Shown here: positions 3,312-59,718 of the stretch, piece after piece | How positions within the stretch are numbered: position 1 is the first letter of the stretch | Layout of the letters: every line of letters begins with the position of its first letter | IMG/VR virus record: IMGVR_UViG_3300030098_005498 | Span: 25,484 to 89,483 of that record | Direction: 5' to 3' (one strand) | From: a virus | DNA: 64,000 bases | Made by a program: the position numbers and the translations under genes | The notes under the pieces: model-generated | Database searches by the model: none | Told to the model about the DNA's origin: nothing | Seen by the model: the letters and a program-made list of their open reading frames with translations, nothing else

Positions 3312-4380
3312 TAATTAATTCCTTAATTTGAGGATAGATAAGTTCTTTAATTTGTTCTACTGTAAGATCTCCAATATCTTTTATACCGTCTGGCATATCT
3401 GGTCTGATATAGTTAAATCTTCTACCACACTTTTTAATAATTTGTTCAGAAGCTTTCTTTCCAGCATCGTCATAATCTGTTAGGATTATCAAATTTAATG
3501 CTCCGCTTTGTTCTAGCAGAATTAATTGGTCTTCATTAATACTACAGCCAAAGATGCCAACCGTCATATCTAACCCGGCTTCAACAGCTCTCCAAACATC
3601 TCCCTGTCCTTCAACAATAATAGCGGTACGTGTTTCAAATATTTTATTTTTGGCTAAATTTAATCCATACAAAATATTTTTAGTAAATCCTTTACTGTGC
3701 AACCATTTTGGTTGTAGGTGTTCTTTAATCGCTCTTCCTACACAGCCTACATAATTGTAGTCTTCATCGTAGATTGGAACAACGACTCTACCGGACATTG
3801 GTTGATTTTCTTTTAAACATTCACCAACATCAAAACACTCTAATACTGATTCAGTATAATTTCTTTGCAAATAATATTTTGCGGGTATATCTAACTTTTG
3901 TTGTATTGATGATCTTGTTACATCTGATTTGTTTCTAGATATTGAACGGTTGAATATATCTATAGTTTTAGCATGGTGTTGTTGGGGAATTTGTAAAGAT
4001 TCTAGATCTTTTTTCAAAAAATGACATAAAAAATCTGCTGTTTCATTCATACTTACAGATCTTTCTCTTTGTTGAGATAAGCAACCTCTAACAAAACCAA
4101 AAAGATTATTAATATATTCTTCATGACAATTATGTGTCCAGCAAGCCCAGTTACCTTTATTGGTCAATCCATCAGTAAATATACAGCACGCTTCTCTATT
4201 ATCACCCCCATGTACGGGGCATGGAAAAGCGATTCGATTTGGATACTCAACGTAGTCTATTCCAAAATATTCTAACAAAGATTGAATTTTTAAAAGTGTT
4301 TCATCACACAGAGATGAGATCTTCTCCTTCGTCAATCTCCTGTGTTTCAAATCCCTGCTGTCTGTTTGCGTTGTTTTCAT
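3301..4380 (-). CDS. DNA primase (DnaG type)
   Basis: The N-terminal third has a CHC2-type zinc region (FPCPVHGGDNREACC ... WACWTHNC) and the C-terminal half a Toprim fold with IIVEGQGDVWRA (metal-binding Glu) and LIILTDYDDAG (DxD). At 359 residues it lacks the helicase-interacting tail of cellular DnaG, which is normal for phages. The only ATG before the zinc site, at 4380, overlaps the helicase gene by 77 nt and has a weak ribosome site, so the true start may be a later non-ATG codon near 4320. It is co-transcribed with the helicase. Confidence 0.85.
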   Translation of the reverse strand: MKTTQTDSRDLKHRRLTKEKISSLCDETLLKIQSLLEYFGIDYVEYPNRIAFPCPVHGGDNREACCIFTDGLTNKGNWACWTHNCHEEYINNLFGFVRGCLSQQRERSVSMNETADFLCHFLKKDLESLQIPQQHHAKTIDIFNRSISRNKSDVTRSSIQQKLDIPAKYYLQRNYTESVLECFDVGECLKENQPMSGRVVVPIYDEDYNYVGCVGRAIKEHLQPKWLHSKGFTKNILYGLNLAKNKIFETRTAIIVEGQGDVWRAVEAGLDMTVGIFGCSINEDQLILLEQSGALNLIILTDYDDAGKKASEQIIKKCGRRFNYIRPDMPDGIKDIGDLTVEQIKELIYPQIKELINEH

Positions 4381-5773
4381 GAATTTCGTTTCTTGTTAAA
4401 CCTTGTTCAATTCTACCAAATCTACCGTGCATTGTCATACTGATATAATCGCCATCATCCAAGCCCTCTCCATGTCTAGCAACCACTGGAACAATTTTTC
4501 TGTCTCCATTTTGAGTTCCATCCTCCGCTTTTTCTTCATCTGATTTTAATTTGAATATTGAAAAACTTGTACACAGCCAAATAAGTCTATCAGAACCAGA
4601 TACTACATCTGTAGATTCTTTTGTTATGCCATCACGATTAAGTTGTACAAAAGCACAACATGCTACATCATACTTAACCATAAAGTTGTGGAGTTTCGTA
4701 ATTTGAAAACCCAAAACTTGGTATTCTTGCATTGCAGCATTGATACCTTCCGATCCCATGAGTTTGAGATAGTCATAGACAATCAAACAATCATTAGTTC
4801 TTCCATTTTCATCAAAGCCAACATGTTGATAAATCCATTTCCTCATTTGACTTAGAATATTTTCAAATGATTCACCGGCAATACTAATATAATGATAAGG
4901 AATCTCTTTAAGTTTTTGAGCGGCTATTTGTACTTTTTCTTTTTCTATTTCGTTTTCTGTAAATCGACCACTGGCAATTCTATTTATCTCTATTCCTGAT
5001 AGATTAGCTAAGATTCTATTGTAATGGTCTTCTTTAGACATTTCTGTATCTAGAACAAGGACTGGTATGTTTTCCTTAGAGGCTACATGAAGTGCAACCG
5101 CATCGCCAAACATTGATTTACCAACCTTTGGTCGTGCTGCAATCAGATCAACACATTTTCTGCGAAAACCACCACCAATTGCAGTATCATATGCGGGAAA
5201 CCCTGAAGGTATTCCTATAAAATCTGACACATTGTTCGCTAAGAAATCCAAGTAATCATCTAAACCTTCTCCTAGAATCTCTGTTTTTTTACTGGATGAT
5301 TGATAAATATCCCCAGTAGCTTCCAGTAAAGGTTCTTCAATTTTGGCAACGATGTCCATTACATCCTCTTCGCCACTAATACTGCCTAATTCCTTTTCAC
5401 ACGCTTTGAGTGTTTGTAGAAGATCTCTTGAAAGTTTTAATTTAGCAATCTTGGCTGCATAACTTCCTACATTTGATTTATGTATAGGAAAATTAAATAA
5501 AGAACGTATAAAGCCTATTTCTTCTTTATTATTTACTTGTTCCTCTACACCTAAATCATTTGCAGCAGATAGGATGGAAGAAAGTTCAACTTGAGTATTT
5601 TCTGAGATAGATTTAAAAACACATTCAAATATTAAAGCGTTCATAGAATCTGTAAAATCATCAGAACTAATAAAGTCTATTTCTAAATATGCATCAAGAC
5701 CGTATTGACATAAGGCAGCCAATACAGCACGTTCTGAAGCTAAATCTGCTAATTTTGTTATCGTCTTAGGCAT
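4304..5773 (-). CDS. replicative DNA helicase (DnaB type)
   Basis: The 489-residue protein has the DnaB N-terminal domain (ASERAVLAALCQYG) and a RecA-like motor: Walker A ARPKVGKSMFGD, the H1a-like VLDTEMS with nearby RILANLSGI, Walker B LIVYDYLKLMGS and the sensor QLNRDG. It should unwind DNA 5' to 3' ahead of the phage fork together with the primase encoded immediately downstream. It ends in an acidic tail (EIDEGEDLISV). It overlaps the upstream zinc-ribbon gene by 16 nt. Confidence 0.9.
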   Translation of the reverse strand: MPKTITKLADLASERAVLAALCQYGLDAYLEIDFISSDDFTDSMNALIFECVFKSISENTQVELSSILSAANDLGVEEQVNNKEEIGFIRSLFNFPIHKSNVGSYAAKIAKLKLSRDLLQTLKACEKELGSISGEEDVMDIVAKIEEPLLEATGDIYQSSSKKTEILGEGLDDYLDFLANNVSDFIGIPSGFPAYDTAIGGGFRRKCVDLIAARPKVGKSMFGDAVALHVASKENIPVLVLDTEMSKEDHYNRILANLSGIEINRIASGRFTENEIEKEKVQIAAQKLKEIPYHYISIAGESFENILSQMRKWIYQHVGFDENGRTNDCLIVYDYLKLMGSEGINAAMQEYQVLGFQITKLHNFMVKYDVACCAFVQLNRDGITKESTDVVSGSDRLIWLCTSFSIFKLKSDEEKAEDGTQNGDRKIVPVVARHGEGLDDGDYISMTMHGRFGRIEQGLTRNEIHENNANRQQGFETQEIDEGEDLISV

Positions 5774-24764: not shown

Positions 24765-25806
24765 TTAGTAACTCCTGTGCTGAATTTTTCCACGTAAATT
24801 GGTTGGCTGTATGCATACCCATAAAATTTTCTACATTACCCCATTTTTGTTTAGTTTTATGTACAGATCTAAGATGTTCAATCAGTTGATCTTTTGCTCT
24901 CTGATTAAAGCTCGCCCATTGTCCATACTCGCCAGAAAAGAAAACACCATCATGGGCATTTTCTAATTCATCAATGTTGATCAAATAGCAATTTTCCTTA
25001 TTGCAAAACTGGGTGTGTGCTGAGTAATTTGTGGCTATAACGGACTTGCCGCAGGCCATCATTTCTAATAGCTCTAAATTCCATCCTTCGGCTCTTGCTG
25101 GAAAAACACCACAATCCGTTTGCTTCATTATATTATACACATCTTTATGTGTTTGTTGTCTTGGAATTATTCTTATCTTGCTACCCAGGGGGGAGTTCTT
25201 GTACAAATCTTGCCAACCTTGATTGTTGGGTCCAATGAAAGGATTATCACACATCATCCATAATTCTACATTATCAGTTTGTTTAAAAGCTTCGTTAAAA
25301 CATTCTAATAAAACATCATGCCCCTTACGCTTTTCCCATTTTCCACAATTAAAAAAAATGGTTTCTTTGCGACTAGACTTTTGAGGTCGGAACGTTTCAA
25401 GATCCACTCCGAGTGGTACGACATGGACAGGCGGACAGGTCCATCCCTTTTGATTGTATAAAACATCTTTAGCCCATTCTGAGCAGACAAATATTTTATC
25501 ACAATGCATAATGCTTATTGCTTCTTCATGAGAAAATTCTGTTAATTCAAAAATGGGAAACCCTATATGGAGACCCTTTCCTACATGTGTATGTAATTCA
25601 TTCTGATGCCAAATCTTTACAGAGGGATTGTCAGACAAATCTGTAAATCTATTGGTCATCCCGGCACGAATATATTTATCAACAAACTCTGGTTTAGAAA
25701 TAGGATATAGGGAAGTGGATGGATGAAGTTTGTATAACTCTTTATAAATATTGTACCCAGCTACCCCATATCCTAAATTGTTAATTGGTGTAATTAACTT
25801 TAACAT
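24754..25806 (-). CDS. glycosyltransferase family 4-like
   Basis: The 350-residue GT-B protein shows the GT4 C-terminal pattern: FNCGKWEKRKGHDVLLECF (strand and Lys-rich donor loop) and VFPARAEGWNLELLEMMACG (E-x7-E motif). It belongs to a four-gene sugar-transfer cluster with three HIRRGD paralogues immediately upstream, two bases away. Together they could build a glycan on a virion protein or alter host surface sugars; the acceptor is unknown. Confidence 0.8.
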   Translation of the reverse strand: MLKLITPINNLGYGVAGYNIYKELYKLHPSTSLYPISKPEFVDKYIRAGMTNRFTDLSDNPSVKIWHQNELHTHVGKGLHIGFPIFELTEFSHEEAISIMHCDKIFVCSEWAKDVLYNQKGWTCPPVHVVPLGVDLETFRPQKSSRKETIFFNCGKWEKRKGHDVLLECFNEAFKQTDNVELWMMCDNPFIGPNNQGWQDLYKNSPLGSKIRIIPRQQTHKDVYNIMKQTDCGVFPARAEGWNLELLEMMACGKSVIATNYSAHTQFCNKENCYLINIDELENAHDGVFFSGEYGQWASFNQRAKDQLIEHLRSVHKTKQKWGNVENFMGMHTANQFTWKNSAQELLNGL

Positions 25807-34944: not shown

Positions 34945-35212
34945 TTGGAATGGCGAATTGGGTAACAAGGCTCGCCACACCCCGTGCTACTTACGCAGCA
35001 AGTGCAAGAGTTTCCTCTGCATTTAAAAATTTGATCTTGTTTTTAGGTAGCCTCAAGACCAACTACCACATGCAACCATTACTTCTATTTGTACGTCGAA
35101 TCTAAGTCACCCCCTTTTTTAATTTATCGAGTGGAGGTGGGGGGAATTGCACCCCCGTCCGCAGCAAATGCCTATAACAGCGTCTACATGTTTAGTTCTC
35201 CAAAAGAAGAAC
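34945..35212 (-). ncRNA. ssrA: tmRNA, circularly permuted (two-piece) form
   Basis: Acceptor piece first (35132-35212): a GTTCTTC/GGAGAAC hairpin, ACTAAACATGTAG, a T-arm with GGGGG/CCCCC, then CACCTCC plus A. After 17 nt the coding piece (35114 downward) starts GGGGGTGACTTAGATTCGACG. GGGGGTG pairs with CACCTCC; TAGTT/AACTA and GCATGT/ACATGT form P2; GGTAG/CTACC with GGTCTTG/CAAGATC form pseudoknot PK1. Twelve nt later a GCA resume codon opens the tag A-EETLALAA-stop (34991-35020). A closing hairpin follows at 34951-34977. Exact ends are uncertain. Confidence 0.88.
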
Positions 35213-35214
35213 AA

Positions 35215-35259
35215 AGCCAATCCTGGGAATCGAACCCATAATATACCTATTGGTTGGCT
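35215..35259 (-). other. T-arm-like hairpin upstream of the tmRNA acceptor piece
   Basis: AGCCAACC pairs with GGATTGGCT (one bulge) around a GGGTTCGATTCCC hairpin that has the tRNA T-loop sequence. No D-arm, anticodon arm or matching 5' acceptor is present, so it is not a tRNA. It may be the 5' portion of the tmRNA precursor or a relic of a tRNA 3' end. Confidence 0.45.
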
Positions 35260-56151: not shown

Positions 56152-56352
56152 TTATAATTCCCTTTTTTCTGGAAGATAAATAGTAACCGTTTGATGATTT
56201 AACGATTTCCATTTATCTTTAAGTGCAACACATGTATTGTCATTTTTTCTCATAACAACATGATTCGCTTTGGATAGCGTGGCGAGTTCTGAATCATCAA
56301 GGCCGCGATTTATTTCCCCTTCCTCAACAACTATTATCCTATATTCTTCCAT
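56152..56352 (-). CDS. hypothetical small protein
   Basis: A 66-residue protein (IIVVEEGEINRGLDDSELAT) coupled to uvdE by a one-base overlap and one base from the spike start. Unrecognised. Confidence 0.5.
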   Translation of the reverse strand: MEEYRIIVVEEGEINRGLDDSELATLSKANHVVMRKNDNTCVALKDKWKSLNHQTVTIYLPEKREL

Positions 56353-57407
56353 TATATATTCCAGCCATTATTTTGAATTCCTTGATCGCTTAGTAAAGTT
56401 TTCCACCTTGCTGCATCAGATTTTAATTTTAACTTTTTCATATCGTGATTTATTGCCATTGATGCAACTGCACGAATAGCTTTGTCTTTTGATTTCAATT
56501 CAATATCCCAGTCATATTGATTATTTTGGGGAAAACTACGTGGCATTTCTGCATGACTTCTTGGATTAGTCTTGTATGGATTTGATTCACTATAATGAAA
56601 TATTGGACGACAATTCCAAGTTTTTGCACATTCTTCCATAGCCAACTTATCATTATTCAATAAAGGTGAAGGATTGCACATATGATGAAGATTATCAAAT
56701 GTAATTGGAATTCTGTAAGGTTTGTAAAAATAATCAATTAGATTTTGCACATTCCAACATCCTTTGTCTTCATTTTCTAATACTATACGCTTTTTTACAG
56801 AGATGTGACATCTTTTTAGGTTAGACATGAATCTTTGTGCTATCTCTTCCAAACTACCATCGGTGCAGTTAACATGAATGTTAATCGGGTTAAAATGATT
56901 TCGTTGGCATCCTAGCTGATCCATTAACCAACCTTGATAATTAAGTTCGTTTATAGTTTTATTTACCGCATTTTGGTTATTACTTGCTAAAACGTTAAAC
57001 TGATCTGGATGTGTTGATAATCTGACTCTCAATGATATATCTTCGTCTTCATGCATTTCACGCTCTTCATCTCTTTTAGGAGTCCAAATTAGTGCAGGTC
57101 TATTTACTGCAAAAATTTGCATTATTTCTTTGTACTGAGGAACATCAGATATATCATATTTGAATTCAGGATGAGTTAAACATGGAAAAATTGAGGATGA
57201 TACACGATATCCCCAGTTGTTTCTACTACAGTGTTTGATAGACTCTATAGTAACCTCAACATTGTTTAACCAACGTGATCCTAGTTCGAATAAAGCTTTT
57301 TCGTCTCCAGATTGTTCGCATAATTGAAGAAATCTCTTAAAGGTCATAGTTCTAAAAGAGATTCCCTTTTCCTTGAGATCATTACTGATACAGCACAAAT
57401 TATACAT
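56352..57407 (-). CDS. uvsE: UV damage endonuclease UvdE/UvsE
   Basis: The 351-residue TIM-barrel protein shows the UvdE order: LCCISNDLKEKGISFRTMTF at the start, RVRLSTHPDQFNVLAS (metal His and the probing Gln), KKRIVLENEDKGCW (Glu ligand) and PIFHYSES (His). It nicks 5' to UV photoproducts and so protects phage DNA. Length matches bacterial UvsE. It has a consensus promoter. Confidence 0.88.
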   Translation of the reverse strand: MYNLCCISNDLKEKGISFRTMTFKRFLQLCEQSGDEKALFELGSRWLNNVEVTIESIKHCSRNNWGYRVSSSIFPCLTHPEFKYDISDVPQYKEIMQIFAVNRPALIWTPKRDEEREMHEDEDISLRVRLSTHPDQFNVLASNNQNAVNKTINELNYQGWLMDQLGCQRNHFNPINIHVNCTDGSLEEIAQRFMSNLKRCHISVKKRIVLENEDKGCWNVQNLIDYFYKPYRIPITFDNLHHMCNPSPLLNNDKLAMEECAKTWNCRPIFHYSESNPYKTNPRSHAEMPRSFPQNNQYDWDIELKSKDKAIRAVASMAINHDMKKLKLKSDAARWKTLLSDQGIQNNGWNI

Positions 57408-57484: not shown

Positions 57485-58222
57485 TTATTTTTTTTCAGAT
57501 AAATATTGTAAGAACCCCTCATCAATATTCTTATACTTTCTTTGCTCTGGAGTCATTCCAGCACATGCGTTGTGCAGATCTGGAAAAACTGGATCAACCA
57601 AATATTGTCTTAATATAAAAATAAAACAATTTAATTTTGGAATTGGTATTGTTATTTGTTTTTCTACTTTTACTTTCACAAATGGATTGCTTGGATTGAA
57701 TTTTTGTTTTGGTAAATCTGGGTGAAAATTAATTTTATTTTCAAAAACGGGAGACCAGACAAATCTTTTTAATGGACCTTTCTGACTCGCTATTTCTGCT
57801 AATTTATAACTATCAGATAGATTCATACCTGGAATTGGTGCATGAATTTCTGATAAAGGTCTGCCTATTTTTTCTTCGGGTCTCCAACCAGAAGGAAAGC
57901 AGACATGTGTTGCTTCCAGAGAATCTTTTCCATTGATAGCAGAATGAATAGCAATGTCTTCTTGTAACTGCATCGCTATGTTATCAAAAGTATATGGAGG
58001 TTTTACCCAATTTGCGTGAATATTAATTAAATCTTGAAGATAGTTTAAAACACGGCTTGTTAGAAAGATATTGTGTAGTAGATAGACCTGCTGAGCTTTA
58101 CAGGCTTTCTTTTTTTCTTCTATGTAATCGTCGTAATTTTCATCACGATGAAAGGGAGACTCTTCAAGATCCAATCGTTTTAGTTGAGGTGAGACACTGT
58201 AGCCGTTCTTGTAGGGATTCAT
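57485..58222 (-). CDS. heme-dependent oxidative N-demethylase family (DUF3445/HODM) protein
   Basis: The 245-residue protein contains the family signature at residues 106-133: HVCFPSGWRPEEKIGRPLSE then IHAPIPGM, with an upstream MQLQEDIAIHS and a downstream RFVWSPVF. Known members (bacterial HODM alpha subunit, fungal DUF3445 proteins) bind heme in a PAS-like domain and oxidatively remove methyl groups from small amines. Here the N-terminal fold and signature are kept. The substrate in a phage is unknown. AAGGAG lies 9 nt before the ATG, just after repeat copy A. Confidence 0.7.
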   Translation of the reverse strand: MNPYKNGYSVSPQLKRLDLEESPFHRDENYDDYIEEKKKACKAQQVYLLHNIFLTSRVLNYLQDLINIHANWVKPPYTFDNIAMQLQEDIAIHSAINGKDSLEATHVCFPSGWRPEEKIGRPLSEIHAPIPGMNLSDSYKLAEIASQKGPLKRFVWSPVFENKINFHPDLPKQKFNPSNPFVKVKVEKQITIPIPKLNCFIFILRQYLVDPVFPDLHNACAGMTPEQRKYKNIDEGFLQYLSEKK

Positions 58223-58242
58223 TTTGTTTTCTCCTTGCTATT

Positions 58243-58276
58243 AAGAACCGCAAAACTTAGCTTTGTTGATGGAGGA
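58243..58276. repeat. 34-nt direct repeat, copy A (3' of the TnpB-like gene)
   Basis: Matches copy B (59609-59642) at 28 of 34 positions, including the plus-strand blocks AAGAACCG, AAAACTT and TTGATGGA. It lies 23 nt beyond the TnpB-like stop and 21 nt before the HODM-like start. Confidence 0.75.
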
Positions 58277-58298
58277 ATTGATGTTTTTTTGATGTCTG

Positions 58299-59549
58299 TT
58301 AACTTGCGTGAGAAACATCTGAAAACTCAACTTTGTCGCTAACAGTATATTCTTCAACCAACTTATCTACACTTCGACGATGCCAATTCCCAAAAGGAAC
58401 TCCAGCGTCTAAGAGTCTTTTGCCTTGGTAGGCGATGTTATACGCTGCGTTTAATTGTGCATTGTCCTGATGTCCGCATTTAATACAATGGAAATCGTCA
58501 GTAGTTTTTCTGTTATTTGCATGGATGTGTCCACAAAGCGAACACCTTCTGGAAGTATTTTTACAAGGAACAACATAAAACGGAACCCCTTGATTTTCAC
58601 ACATTGTTTGTAGGTTTGGGATAATTTTATCTTGACCAAAAGTTCCAGATGTTGCAATTCTCACACTGTCAATGCAAAACAATTGTTTGTTTTTAATAAC
58701 TGTTGACAGAATATCTTTACAAATTCTTAAAACAATTTTATTGGCCTCTTTGTGTTTTTTCTGAATTTGCAATCTTAGCTTTCTACGTTGTTTAGATCTT
58801 AATTGTCTCCTTTTAACCGTAACCTTTTTATCTTTATCTAAAGACTTATTGATTTCTCTGATTTCTTCTTCTAGCTTAATCAAAGTTTCGGGCTTGGTTA
58901 TTACAGTTCCGTTATTAAAATACATCCAAGATTTAGAATCTTTATTAATATCAAAAGCAAGGATATCATCAGGAACGTAAGATTCACTTACTTCAACGTC
59001 AACTCCAGCAACAAAGCATTTTTGCGTGAAAGAAAAGTTGCCGCCAAAATCTATTTTTGTAATAAGATCTTCTTTTAAACTATACTTGTAGGGAACTTTT
59101 TTAAATTCACCTTTAGGCGTATACATTGTTCTAACAAGAAGAACTTTGTTTTCTTTGTCAATCCTAATCGCGGGCTCACTAAACGTAAAAGATTTATACT
59201 TAAACCCAATAGGAGATTTGATGTCAAGAATCCTGTCTTCATTTCTTCCCCAATAACTGCTATATCTATTAAGAACAATTGAAACGCAGTTACGTTTCAT
59301 TGATTCTCTACAAGTGTCTTTGTCAAACAAGTGATGAACCGAATTCTTGAACTGTGCCTTTGTTTGCTCAGTTCCATCTGAGTATTTAACGTATTGATTT
59401 TTTGTAATTTCTACAATTTTACCGCTTTTGATCATATTTCTAATATACTTAGAAATTCTTCTTTGGGTTTCAAGTTCCTTTTTAAAATCTTCTTCAAGTT
59501 CTGAAAGATCCAATCCCCAAAATTTTGCATTTCTTTTGAACTTAATCAT
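58299..59549 (-). CDS. TnpB-like RNA-guided protein, RuvC site degenerate
   Basis: The 416-residue protein has the TnpB/Cas12 C-terminal architecture: RuvC-I DDILAFDINKDS (Asp200), a Lys/Arg-rich bridge helix (VKRRQLRSKQRRKLRLQIQK), NTSRRCSLCG and FHCIKCG as the zinc ribbon, and LNAAYNIA. RuvC-II carries Asp294 (FCIDSV) where Glu is normal, and RuvC-III reads AQLNAA, with Gln365 in place of the catalytic Asp of DxNAA. This points to a nuclease-inactive TldR-like regulator rather than an active transposon nuclease. No TnpA is present. The 34-nt repeats flank it. Confidence 0.8.
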   Translation of the reverse strand: MIKFKRNAKFWGLDLSELEEDFKKELETQRRISKYIRNMIKSGKIVEITKNQYVKYSDGTEQTKAQFKNSVHHLFDKDTCRESMKRNCVSIVLNRYSSYWGRNEDRILDIKSPIGFKYKSFTFSEPAIRIDKENKVLLVRTMYTPKGEFKKVPYKYSLKEDLITKIDFGGNFSFTQKCFVAGVDVEVSESYVPDDILAFDINKDSKSWMYFNNGTVITKPETLIKLEEEIREINKSLDKDKKVTVKRRQLRSKQRRKLRLQIQKKHKEANKIVLRICKDILSTVIKNKQLFCIDSVRIATSGTFGQDKIIPNLQTMCENQGVPFYVVPCKNTSRRCSLCGHIHANNRKTTDDFHCIKCGHQDNAQLNAAYNIAYQGKRLLDAGVPFGNWHRRSVDKLVEEYTVSDKVEFSDVSHAS

Positions 59550-59594
59550 TTGGCTTTTTACTTTTTTAAAATAAAAAATGACGGTTTGGGACGG

Positions 59595-59641
59595 CTTCCA
59601 TCTCGGCCAAGAACCGTAAAACTTGCCTTTATTGATGGAAG
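59595..59641 (-). other. hairpin overlapping repeat copy B
   Basis: A perfect 8-bp inverted repeat, CTTCCATC/GATGGAAG, encloses 31 nt that include the AAGAACCG core of the repeat. A second fold, ACGGTTC with GAAGCCGT, is followed downstream by a T-run. It may be the tRNA operon terminator or a guide-RNA scaffold. Confidence 0.4.
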
Positions 59642-59642
59642 T
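59609..59642. repeat. 34-nt direct repeat, copy B (5' of the TnpB-like gene)
   Basis: Same orientation as copy A with six substitutions. It sits between the tRNA-Arg 3' end and the TnpB-like start. Both copies contain TTGAT, the motif known as the target-adjacent motif of ISDra2 TnpB; whether that is meaningful here is unknown. Confidence 0.75.
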
Positions 59643-59646
59643 ACAG

Positions 59647-59718
59647 TAGCCCGACGAGGAATCGAACCTCGAACTAGGGTTTAGAAGACCCTTGTTATAT
59701 CCGTTTAACTATCAGGCC
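59647..59718 (-). tRNA. tRNA-Arg (TCT anticodon)
   Basis: A full cloverleaf folds: acceptor GGCCTGA/TCGGGCT (two G-U pairs), anticodon arm AGGGT-CTTCTAA-ACCCT, T-arm CGAGG-TTCGATT-CCTCG. The anticodon TCT reads AGA, a codon that is favoured in AT-rich phage genes. CCA is not encoded. Confidence 0.93.

Follow-up and report, generated by a model that had tools for sequence, protein, structure and literature searches.

To our knowledge, every TnpB, Cas12 or TldR protein characterised so far depends on a guide RNA. Among described systems, the locus reported here resembles TldR proteins such as the prophage fliC-TldR (PMC13418256) in the loss of RuvC residues, the absence of TnpA, carriage by a phage, an adjacent structured RNA and purifying selection. 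It also recalls ISDra2 TnpB and its omega-RNA (PMC10097598) in the overall fold, in a stem-loop strand that pairs with the RNA's own 3′ end and in an RNA copy over the 3′ end of the open reading frame (ORF), and Cas12m2 of type V-M (PMC10442227) in a Glu-to-Asp change at RuvC-II and a short pseudoknotted RNA. Further likenesses are found in IS607 TnpB, which is partnered with a conserved pseudoknotted RNA motif, the RAGATH-18 reRNA (PMC11061315), and in the TIGR-Tas systems, with phage-borne RNA arrays on one or both sides of the gene for an RNA-binding protein (PMC12045711). The locus lies in a 64,000-nucleotide (nt) stretch of virus DNA (the window; positions 25,484 to 89,483 of IMG/VR record IMGVR_UViG_3300030098_005498) and consists of a gene for a TnpB-like protein accompanied by copies of a ~62-nt pseudoknotted RNA. 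We read it, with a probability of about 0.45, as encoding an exapted, nuclease-dead TnpB that would regulate in cis by binding omega-RNA-like pseudoknots in the leaders of phage mRNAs. The anatomy of RNA and gene is well supported; RNA binding and function are what we infer from it.

The gene and the residues of interest are located as follows:

58299-59549, minus strand: tnpB-like ORF of 416 aa (ORF call, Pfam, phrog_506, AlphaFold2 and Foldseek)
58950-58952, minus strand: codon of RuvC-I Asp200 (D200), read from the DNA and invariant in 14 aligned members
58668-58670, minus strand: RuvC-II Asp294 (D294), Glu in TnpB/Cas12; read from the DNA, Asp in 14/14
58455-58457, minus strand: RuvC-III Gln365 (Q365), Asp in TnpB/Cas12; read from the DNA and the alignment
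58476-58544, minus strand: zinc ribbon Cys336/339/355/358, intact and invariant in the alignment

The 416-aa protein matches Pfam PF07282 (Cas12f1-like_TNB) with an E-value of 2.2e-13, as do all 14 family members in the Pfam scan, and is also matched by phrog_506 (6e-20). Its AlphaFold2 model (predicted local distance difference test, pLDDT, 85.9) gave near full-length Foldseek matches to the Cas12f and TnpB structures 8dzj (E 5.5e-15), 8iaz and 8h1j. With a RuvC domain and a TNB zinc ribbon both present, the protein is, on its modelled fold, a member of the TnpB/Cas12f superfamily, and the first-pass annotation of this DNA, which had described a TnpB-type protein with an intact zinc ribbon, is borne out by the ORF, the fold and the four retained cysteines. 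The same holds for the two substitutions it had named, Asp for Glu at residue 294 and Gln for Asp at 365: both were read from the DNA and the alignment, in a protein whose AlphaFold2 model has a TnpB/Cas12f fold. In place of the D-E-D catalytic triad of active TnpB/Cas12f, ISDra2 TnpB included, the window protein thus has D200, D294 and Q365. A relocated RuvC-III aspartate was also considered; the nearby candidate, D362, was dropped as it is not conserved across alignment A2. In Cas12m2, the RuvC-II Glu-to-Asp change means that the second metal is not coordinated, which is part of why cleavage is lost (PMC10442227), but that protein has His at RuvC-I, where the window protein has Asp, and keeps the RuvC-III Asp that the window protein has lost. 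Taken together, these residues support the view that the phage protein is probably nuclease-inactivated and TldR-like.

Relatives were found in viral contigs (designated L or G below) at 92, 77, 45-37 and 31-26% protein identity. A pattern-based scan of a bacterial and archaeal genome collection found none, and a search of annotated phages gave matches at the level of the zinc ribbon only. All 14 aligned members share D200, D294 and a GTFGQD motif following RuvC-II. At RuvC-III, 11 of them have Gln or His: Gln in clade A (the window phage and L001-L003) and L032, and His in clade B (L004, L007 and L033-L037) and L045. Asp is kept in L042, L043 and L046. Within this alignment, the RuvC-II change is accordingly seen to be family-wide and the apparent loss at RuvC-III limited to part of the family; the deep branches of the family tree that we computed are unsure. 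The ratio of nonsynonymous to synonymous substitution rates (dN/dS), where measurable, is 0.28-0.32 in clade A and 0.05-0.13 in clade B, and values of 0.05-0.32 in a protein with altered nuclease residues argue that it has been retained for some role that is not canonical cleavage. As the first-pass annotation had held for the window, TnpA is absent: neither Y1 TnpA (PF01797) nor serine-recombinase TnpA (PF00239) was detected in any of 14 records, and the positive controls were detected. A phage-restricted clade of TnpB homologues that has lost nuclease function and kept a cognate structured RNA is part of what we regard as the best explanation.

The RNA component first appeared as a pair of direct repeats. 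Its copies in the window, and the repeats, are:

59580-59641, minus strand: pseudoknot RNA copy 1 (covariance model R1, E 1.6e-14; descriptor score 51)
58280-58345, minus strand: pseudoknot RNA copy 2, over the 3′ end of the tnpB-like ORF (R1 E 2.5e-8; descriptor score 45)
58217-58275, minus strand: degenerate pseudoknot RNA copy 3 (R1 E 1.4e-4)
58243-58276, plus strand: 34-nt repeat 1, the 5′ part of copy 3 on the opposite strand (pattern search)
59609-59642, plus strand: 34-nt repeat 2, the 5′ part of copy 1 on the opposite strand (pattern search)

The repeats had been described as 34 nt long and identical at 28 of 34 positions, and this is so, with two pattern matches in the window against 0.00 expected. 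The repeats are real, but the unit that recurs extends beyond 34 nt, and a third, more diverged copy at 58280-58345 had been missed. Each repeat forms the 5′ portion of a longer RNA of ~62 nt that is encoded on the minus strand and folds into a pseudoknot. In this RNA, an outer stem, S1, encloses a bulged inner stem, S2, with an A-rich joint after S1; the loop strand of S2 (PK5) pairs with a strand (PK3) just downstream of S1, and PK3 is preceded by CAAA. Read on the minus strand, each repeat runs on into TTCCATC...GATGGAA (S1), the bulged S2 and a loop strand that pairs with the downstream AACCGT. In copy 1, which occupies the leader between a tRNA-Arg and the tnpB-like gene, the helices are S1 CUUCCAUC/GAUGGAAG, S2 GGCAAG/CUUGgCC and the pseudoknot ACGGUU/AACCGU, followed by AUUUUUU; in copy 2, they include S1 CUGUUAGC/GUUAACAG and the pseudoknot GAUGUU/AACAUC. 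Copy 3 retains S2 and PK5, has lost the 3′ arm of S1 and PK3 by deletion, and runs into the Shine-Dalgarno site of the next gene. Its counterpart in L001 is intact at 3642-3704; comparison of window 58217-58250 with L001 3680-3860, a region in which L001 has a run of N, shows that the deletion has taken away copy 3's 3′ half together with a small ORF region. Clade B has an additional helix, P0, in which bases just before S1 pair with the joint. The RNA is about half as long as the ISDra2 omega-RNA, and the enclosing S1 stands in place of stems 2-4. Searched against Rfam up to E 5-10, copies from L004, the window, L034 and L045 had no plausible match, and none of the riboswitch, RAGATH and omega-RNA-type families there matched. 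The element is therefore uncatalogued in Rfam; an earlier mention of the clade is possible beyond open-licence PubMed Central.

With respect to folding, a pseudoknot descriptor gave 26 matches at a score of at least 47 in the window phage and its relatives and none in shuffled sequences, and the number of distinct copies rose to 41 after further phages were added, in a listing that also used a filter for A-rich sequence before PK3. Copies found by their pairing are bound to pair, and it is the shuffled control and the diversity of the pairs that carry the argument. In nine training copies aligned with MAFFT, 183 of 183 cells pair, and double-sided changes are present in 15 of 21 base pairs, such that all three helices covary, a result reached in 0 of 500 shuffles; when the structures are slid by 1-3 columns, the paired fraction falls to 29-51%. 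Unpaired positions that were absent from the first search, namely the A-rich joint after S1 and the CAAA before PK3, are also conserved. Covariation across these sequences thus shows the predicted pseudoknot fold.

The RNA and the gene are closely linked. The R1 model, trained only on G002, G003 and G008, detected only three copies across the entire 89-kb record of the window phage, each adjoining or overlapping the tnpB-like gene. Copies adjoin the gene also in clade B, L032 and L045, and weak but rightly placed ones do so in the basal L043 and L044. In most relatives the RNA lies beside the gene, usually in tandem, with the tandem copies 3′ of the gene and the first overlapping or abutting its end; R1 found such copies 3′ of the gene in basal members too (for example, L173 19625-19758). 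Some phages add dispersed intergenic copies, and L002 and L003 have these and no tandem 3′ copies. The copies lie between genes, the sole overlaps being with the 3′ end of tnpB or with a doubtful ORF call; they are always sense to the neighbouring genes, and most lie at most 60 nt from a stop codon and the next start. Copies adjoin tRNAs in L019 (5407), L166 (5359) and L175 (5377). Among pattern matches in viral contigs, the gene is present in the five contigs whose copy is structurally valid and absent from the eight that fail the structure, a comparison that mostly samples close kin. A looser pattern, CGGTTCT...CAAAACCG, run over the viral contigs was set aside because its matches were mostly chance, with a sole valid copy in L123. 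One 18.6-kb fragment (G019) has a copy and not the gene, and the basal member L042 has the gene and no recognisable copy of the pseudoknot motif.

A different array adjoins the gene in L046. At 4431-4610, 3′ of the gene, tandem ~26-nt units built on ACAAAACTAGT with variable parts of ~15 nt are followed by a terminator-like hairpin, and the whole looks like a miniature array of the kind found in clustered regularly interspaced short palindromic repeats (CRISPR) loci. On the 5′ side, 2640-2790 holds a compact RNA in which the hairpin loop GCTTAC pairs with GTAAGC; a terminator-like hairpin begins 3 nt after this pairing, which leaves no room for a guide. Two other arrangements around the pseudoknot RNA were observed. 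L045 2473-5250 contains, in a row, about seven copies, the tnpB-like gene, a small ORF, a tRNA and a one-piece transfer-messenger RNA (tmRNA), and L003 10456-11115 is a gene with weak sigma-70 region 4 matches that lies ~40 nt after a copy.

In terms of mechanism, a true TldR would use the pseudoknot as a scaffold and the bases after PK3 to guide the dead TnpB to phage or host promoters, repressing them. This would account for a nuclease-dead TnpB in a phage that lacks TnpA and for an RNA copy over the ORF 3′ end in omega-RNA fashion, and it has precedent in the ISDra2 omega-RNA, whose guide follows directly on the pseudoknot strand and whose pseudoknot is conserved across the guide RNAs of Cas12 (PMC10097598), and in fliC-TldR, for which guides down to 6 nt suffice (PMC13418256). 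The difficulty lies in the guides. The first-pass annotation had taken the repeats as scaffold ends followed by two guides, but these prove to be the RNA's own 3′ arm and the leader of the next gene: GGCCGAGATG corresponds to the 3′ strand of S2/S1 in the pseudoknot, and its GATGG pairs with the repeat's CCATC, and AATAGCAAGG is the Shine-Dalgarno leader of the ORF at 57485-58222, joined to the truncated copy by the deletion relative to L001. PK3, the true scaffold end, is followed by A/T-rich leaders, Shine-Dalgarno sites, tRNAs, terminators or the next copy, with insertions and deletions between orthologues; tandem copies are 3-12 nt apart, and the clade B linker is a strand of P0. The matches to sequence after the scaffold that the annotation had suggested seeking are in no excess: searched against each phage's own DNA, the mean longest prefix was 8.7 nt versus 8.6 nt in a Markov control. 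The RNA, as far as can be read from its sequence, appears to carry no recognisable guide, and because none was found, membership of the TldR group is not established. The earlier idea of a phage RNA-guided regulator accordingly survives in its nuclease-inactivated, TldR-like TnpB under purifying selection and its structured RNA at the gene ends, but not in its guides. The family further departs from TldRs in its multiple, tandem and dispersed RNA copies and as a distinct, phage-only clade with GTFGQD after RuvC-II and no host-gene homologue seen as a partner, and we consider a true TldR unlikely, albeit a serious contender. Other guide systems differ as well: Cas12m2 has a CRISPR array with spacers, whereas the copies here are ~62-nt self-folding units with tandem linkers of 3-12 nt; IS607 TnpB is an active nuclease with one RNA, comprising a 187-nt scaffold and a 20-nt guide, and RAGATH-18 has no match in the window family; and TIGR-Tas has Nop-domain proteins and 9-nt spacers, in contrast to the TnpB fold here and to variable strands that are each other's pairing partners within a single copy. 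The Pfam scan of the family found no Nop domain, and the array form differs from a dual-repeat TIGR array.

Other accounts dispense with guides altogether. The RNA could be independent of the TnpB homologue, which would lie at the same locus without binding it, and could act as a phage riboswitch, attenuator or exonuclease-resistant pseudoknot; the RNA's topology of stem, hairpin and loop paired just downstream recalls luteovirus-type exonuclease-resistant RNAs, leaders of unrelated genes hold copies in G002 and G003, and a U-run follows PK3 in most clade A copies. We think this improbable given that the RNA adjoins the gene in divergent family members, occurs nowhere else in the window phage and has no Rfam match. 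It is also conceivable, though we would place little weight on it, that the pseudoknots between cistrons and tRNAs are sites at which polycistronic phage RNA is processed, either by the protein itself or by a host RNase that it recruits. Copies do lie between cistrons and next to tRNAs, the RuvC-I and RuvC-II Asp are retained, and some Cas12 and TnpB proteins process their own RNA; such self-processing by TnpB is, however, thought to depend on the RuvC site, which is altered in the window protein, and cutting at the copy in tnpB's own leader would sever its mRNA leader. Finally, a TnpB homologue between directly repeated, hairpin-bearing sequences resembles a decayed IS605/IS607 element with terminal repeats as transposon ends. 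That reading of the repeats was rejected on the absence of TnpA from the 14 records, and the decayed element as a whole is disfavoured to the point of being very improbable, as the repeats are covarying RNA pseudoknots also found away from the gene, the protein is under purifying selection, and a similar organisation is kept at 26-45% protein identity.

Our preferred reading, a nuclease-dead TnpB acting on pseudoknots in phage mRNA, would run as follows. The RNA would have lost its guide and spread by copying to leaders: ahead of the tnpB-like gene, across that gene's 3′ end and, in some relatives, ahead of other genes and tRNAs. The elements would be transcribed within phage mRNAs, as their strand and position suggest, and would take up the fold that covariation shows. 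The dead TnpB would bind the pseudoknot, as suggested by the co-occurrence of RNA and gene, by an RNA common to proteins of 26-94% identity and by the pseudoknot being the recognition core of TnpB/Cas12, proteins that bind such structures in their own RNAs (PMC10097598). Bound elements might then block ribosome loading on the adjacent gene, or act on its transcription or decay, a step suggested most directly by clade B, in which PK3 ends 0-2 nt before the Shine-Dalgarno GGAG. The outcome would be autoregulation of tnpB and control of a small regulon. The fuller proposal, that a guide-free RNA-binding regulator arose from TnpB and that a former omega-RNA scaffold spread as tandem and dispersed leader elements to form a post-transcriptional regulon, is offered tentatively. 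Several points weigh against this reading. The putative regulatory outcome is read solely from where the copies lie; in G002 and G003, dispersed copies outnumber those at the tnpB-like gene, and the RNA could therefore have an independent function; the U-run after most clade A copies also fits a protein-free terminator or attenuator; the invariance of the RuvC-I and RuvC-II Asp implies that the pocket is still in use for something; and guides directed at the host are possible, the guide search having covered phage DNA.

If the preferred reading is right, a clade that kept its scaffold and lost both cutting and guide would show an RNA-guided protein becoming a plain RNA-binding regulator, and the compact, strongly covarying pseudoknot would be an additional phage control element. 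If a guide exists, the family would still be a new TldR-like clade in phages, with a scaffold reduced to a minimal ~62 nt and RNAs present in several copies.

The locus is bordered by:

57485-58222, minus strand: downstream gene with an HODM_asu-like domain (ORF call, Pfam), whose Shine-Dalgarno site abuts truncated copy 3
59646-59718, minus strand: tRNA-Arg (TCT), the upstream neighbour, conserved in L001, L002 and L003

The domain of the downstream gene is like that of a haem-dependent oxidative N-demethylase alpha subunit (PF11927, E 1.3e-19), and a gene for a UvdE-type UV endonuclease lies beside it at 56352-57407. In L003, positions 1427-2179 encode a phage protein with matches to cytochrome c and a planctomycete-type cytochrome (PSCyt1), a weak hint as to the host. 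Elsewhere in the window, a permuted tmRNA of the two-piece type is found at 34987-35221 on the minus strand (Rfam RF04321, 105 bits; alpha_tmRNA, 65 bits), with the tag AEETLALAA as read by ARAGORN.
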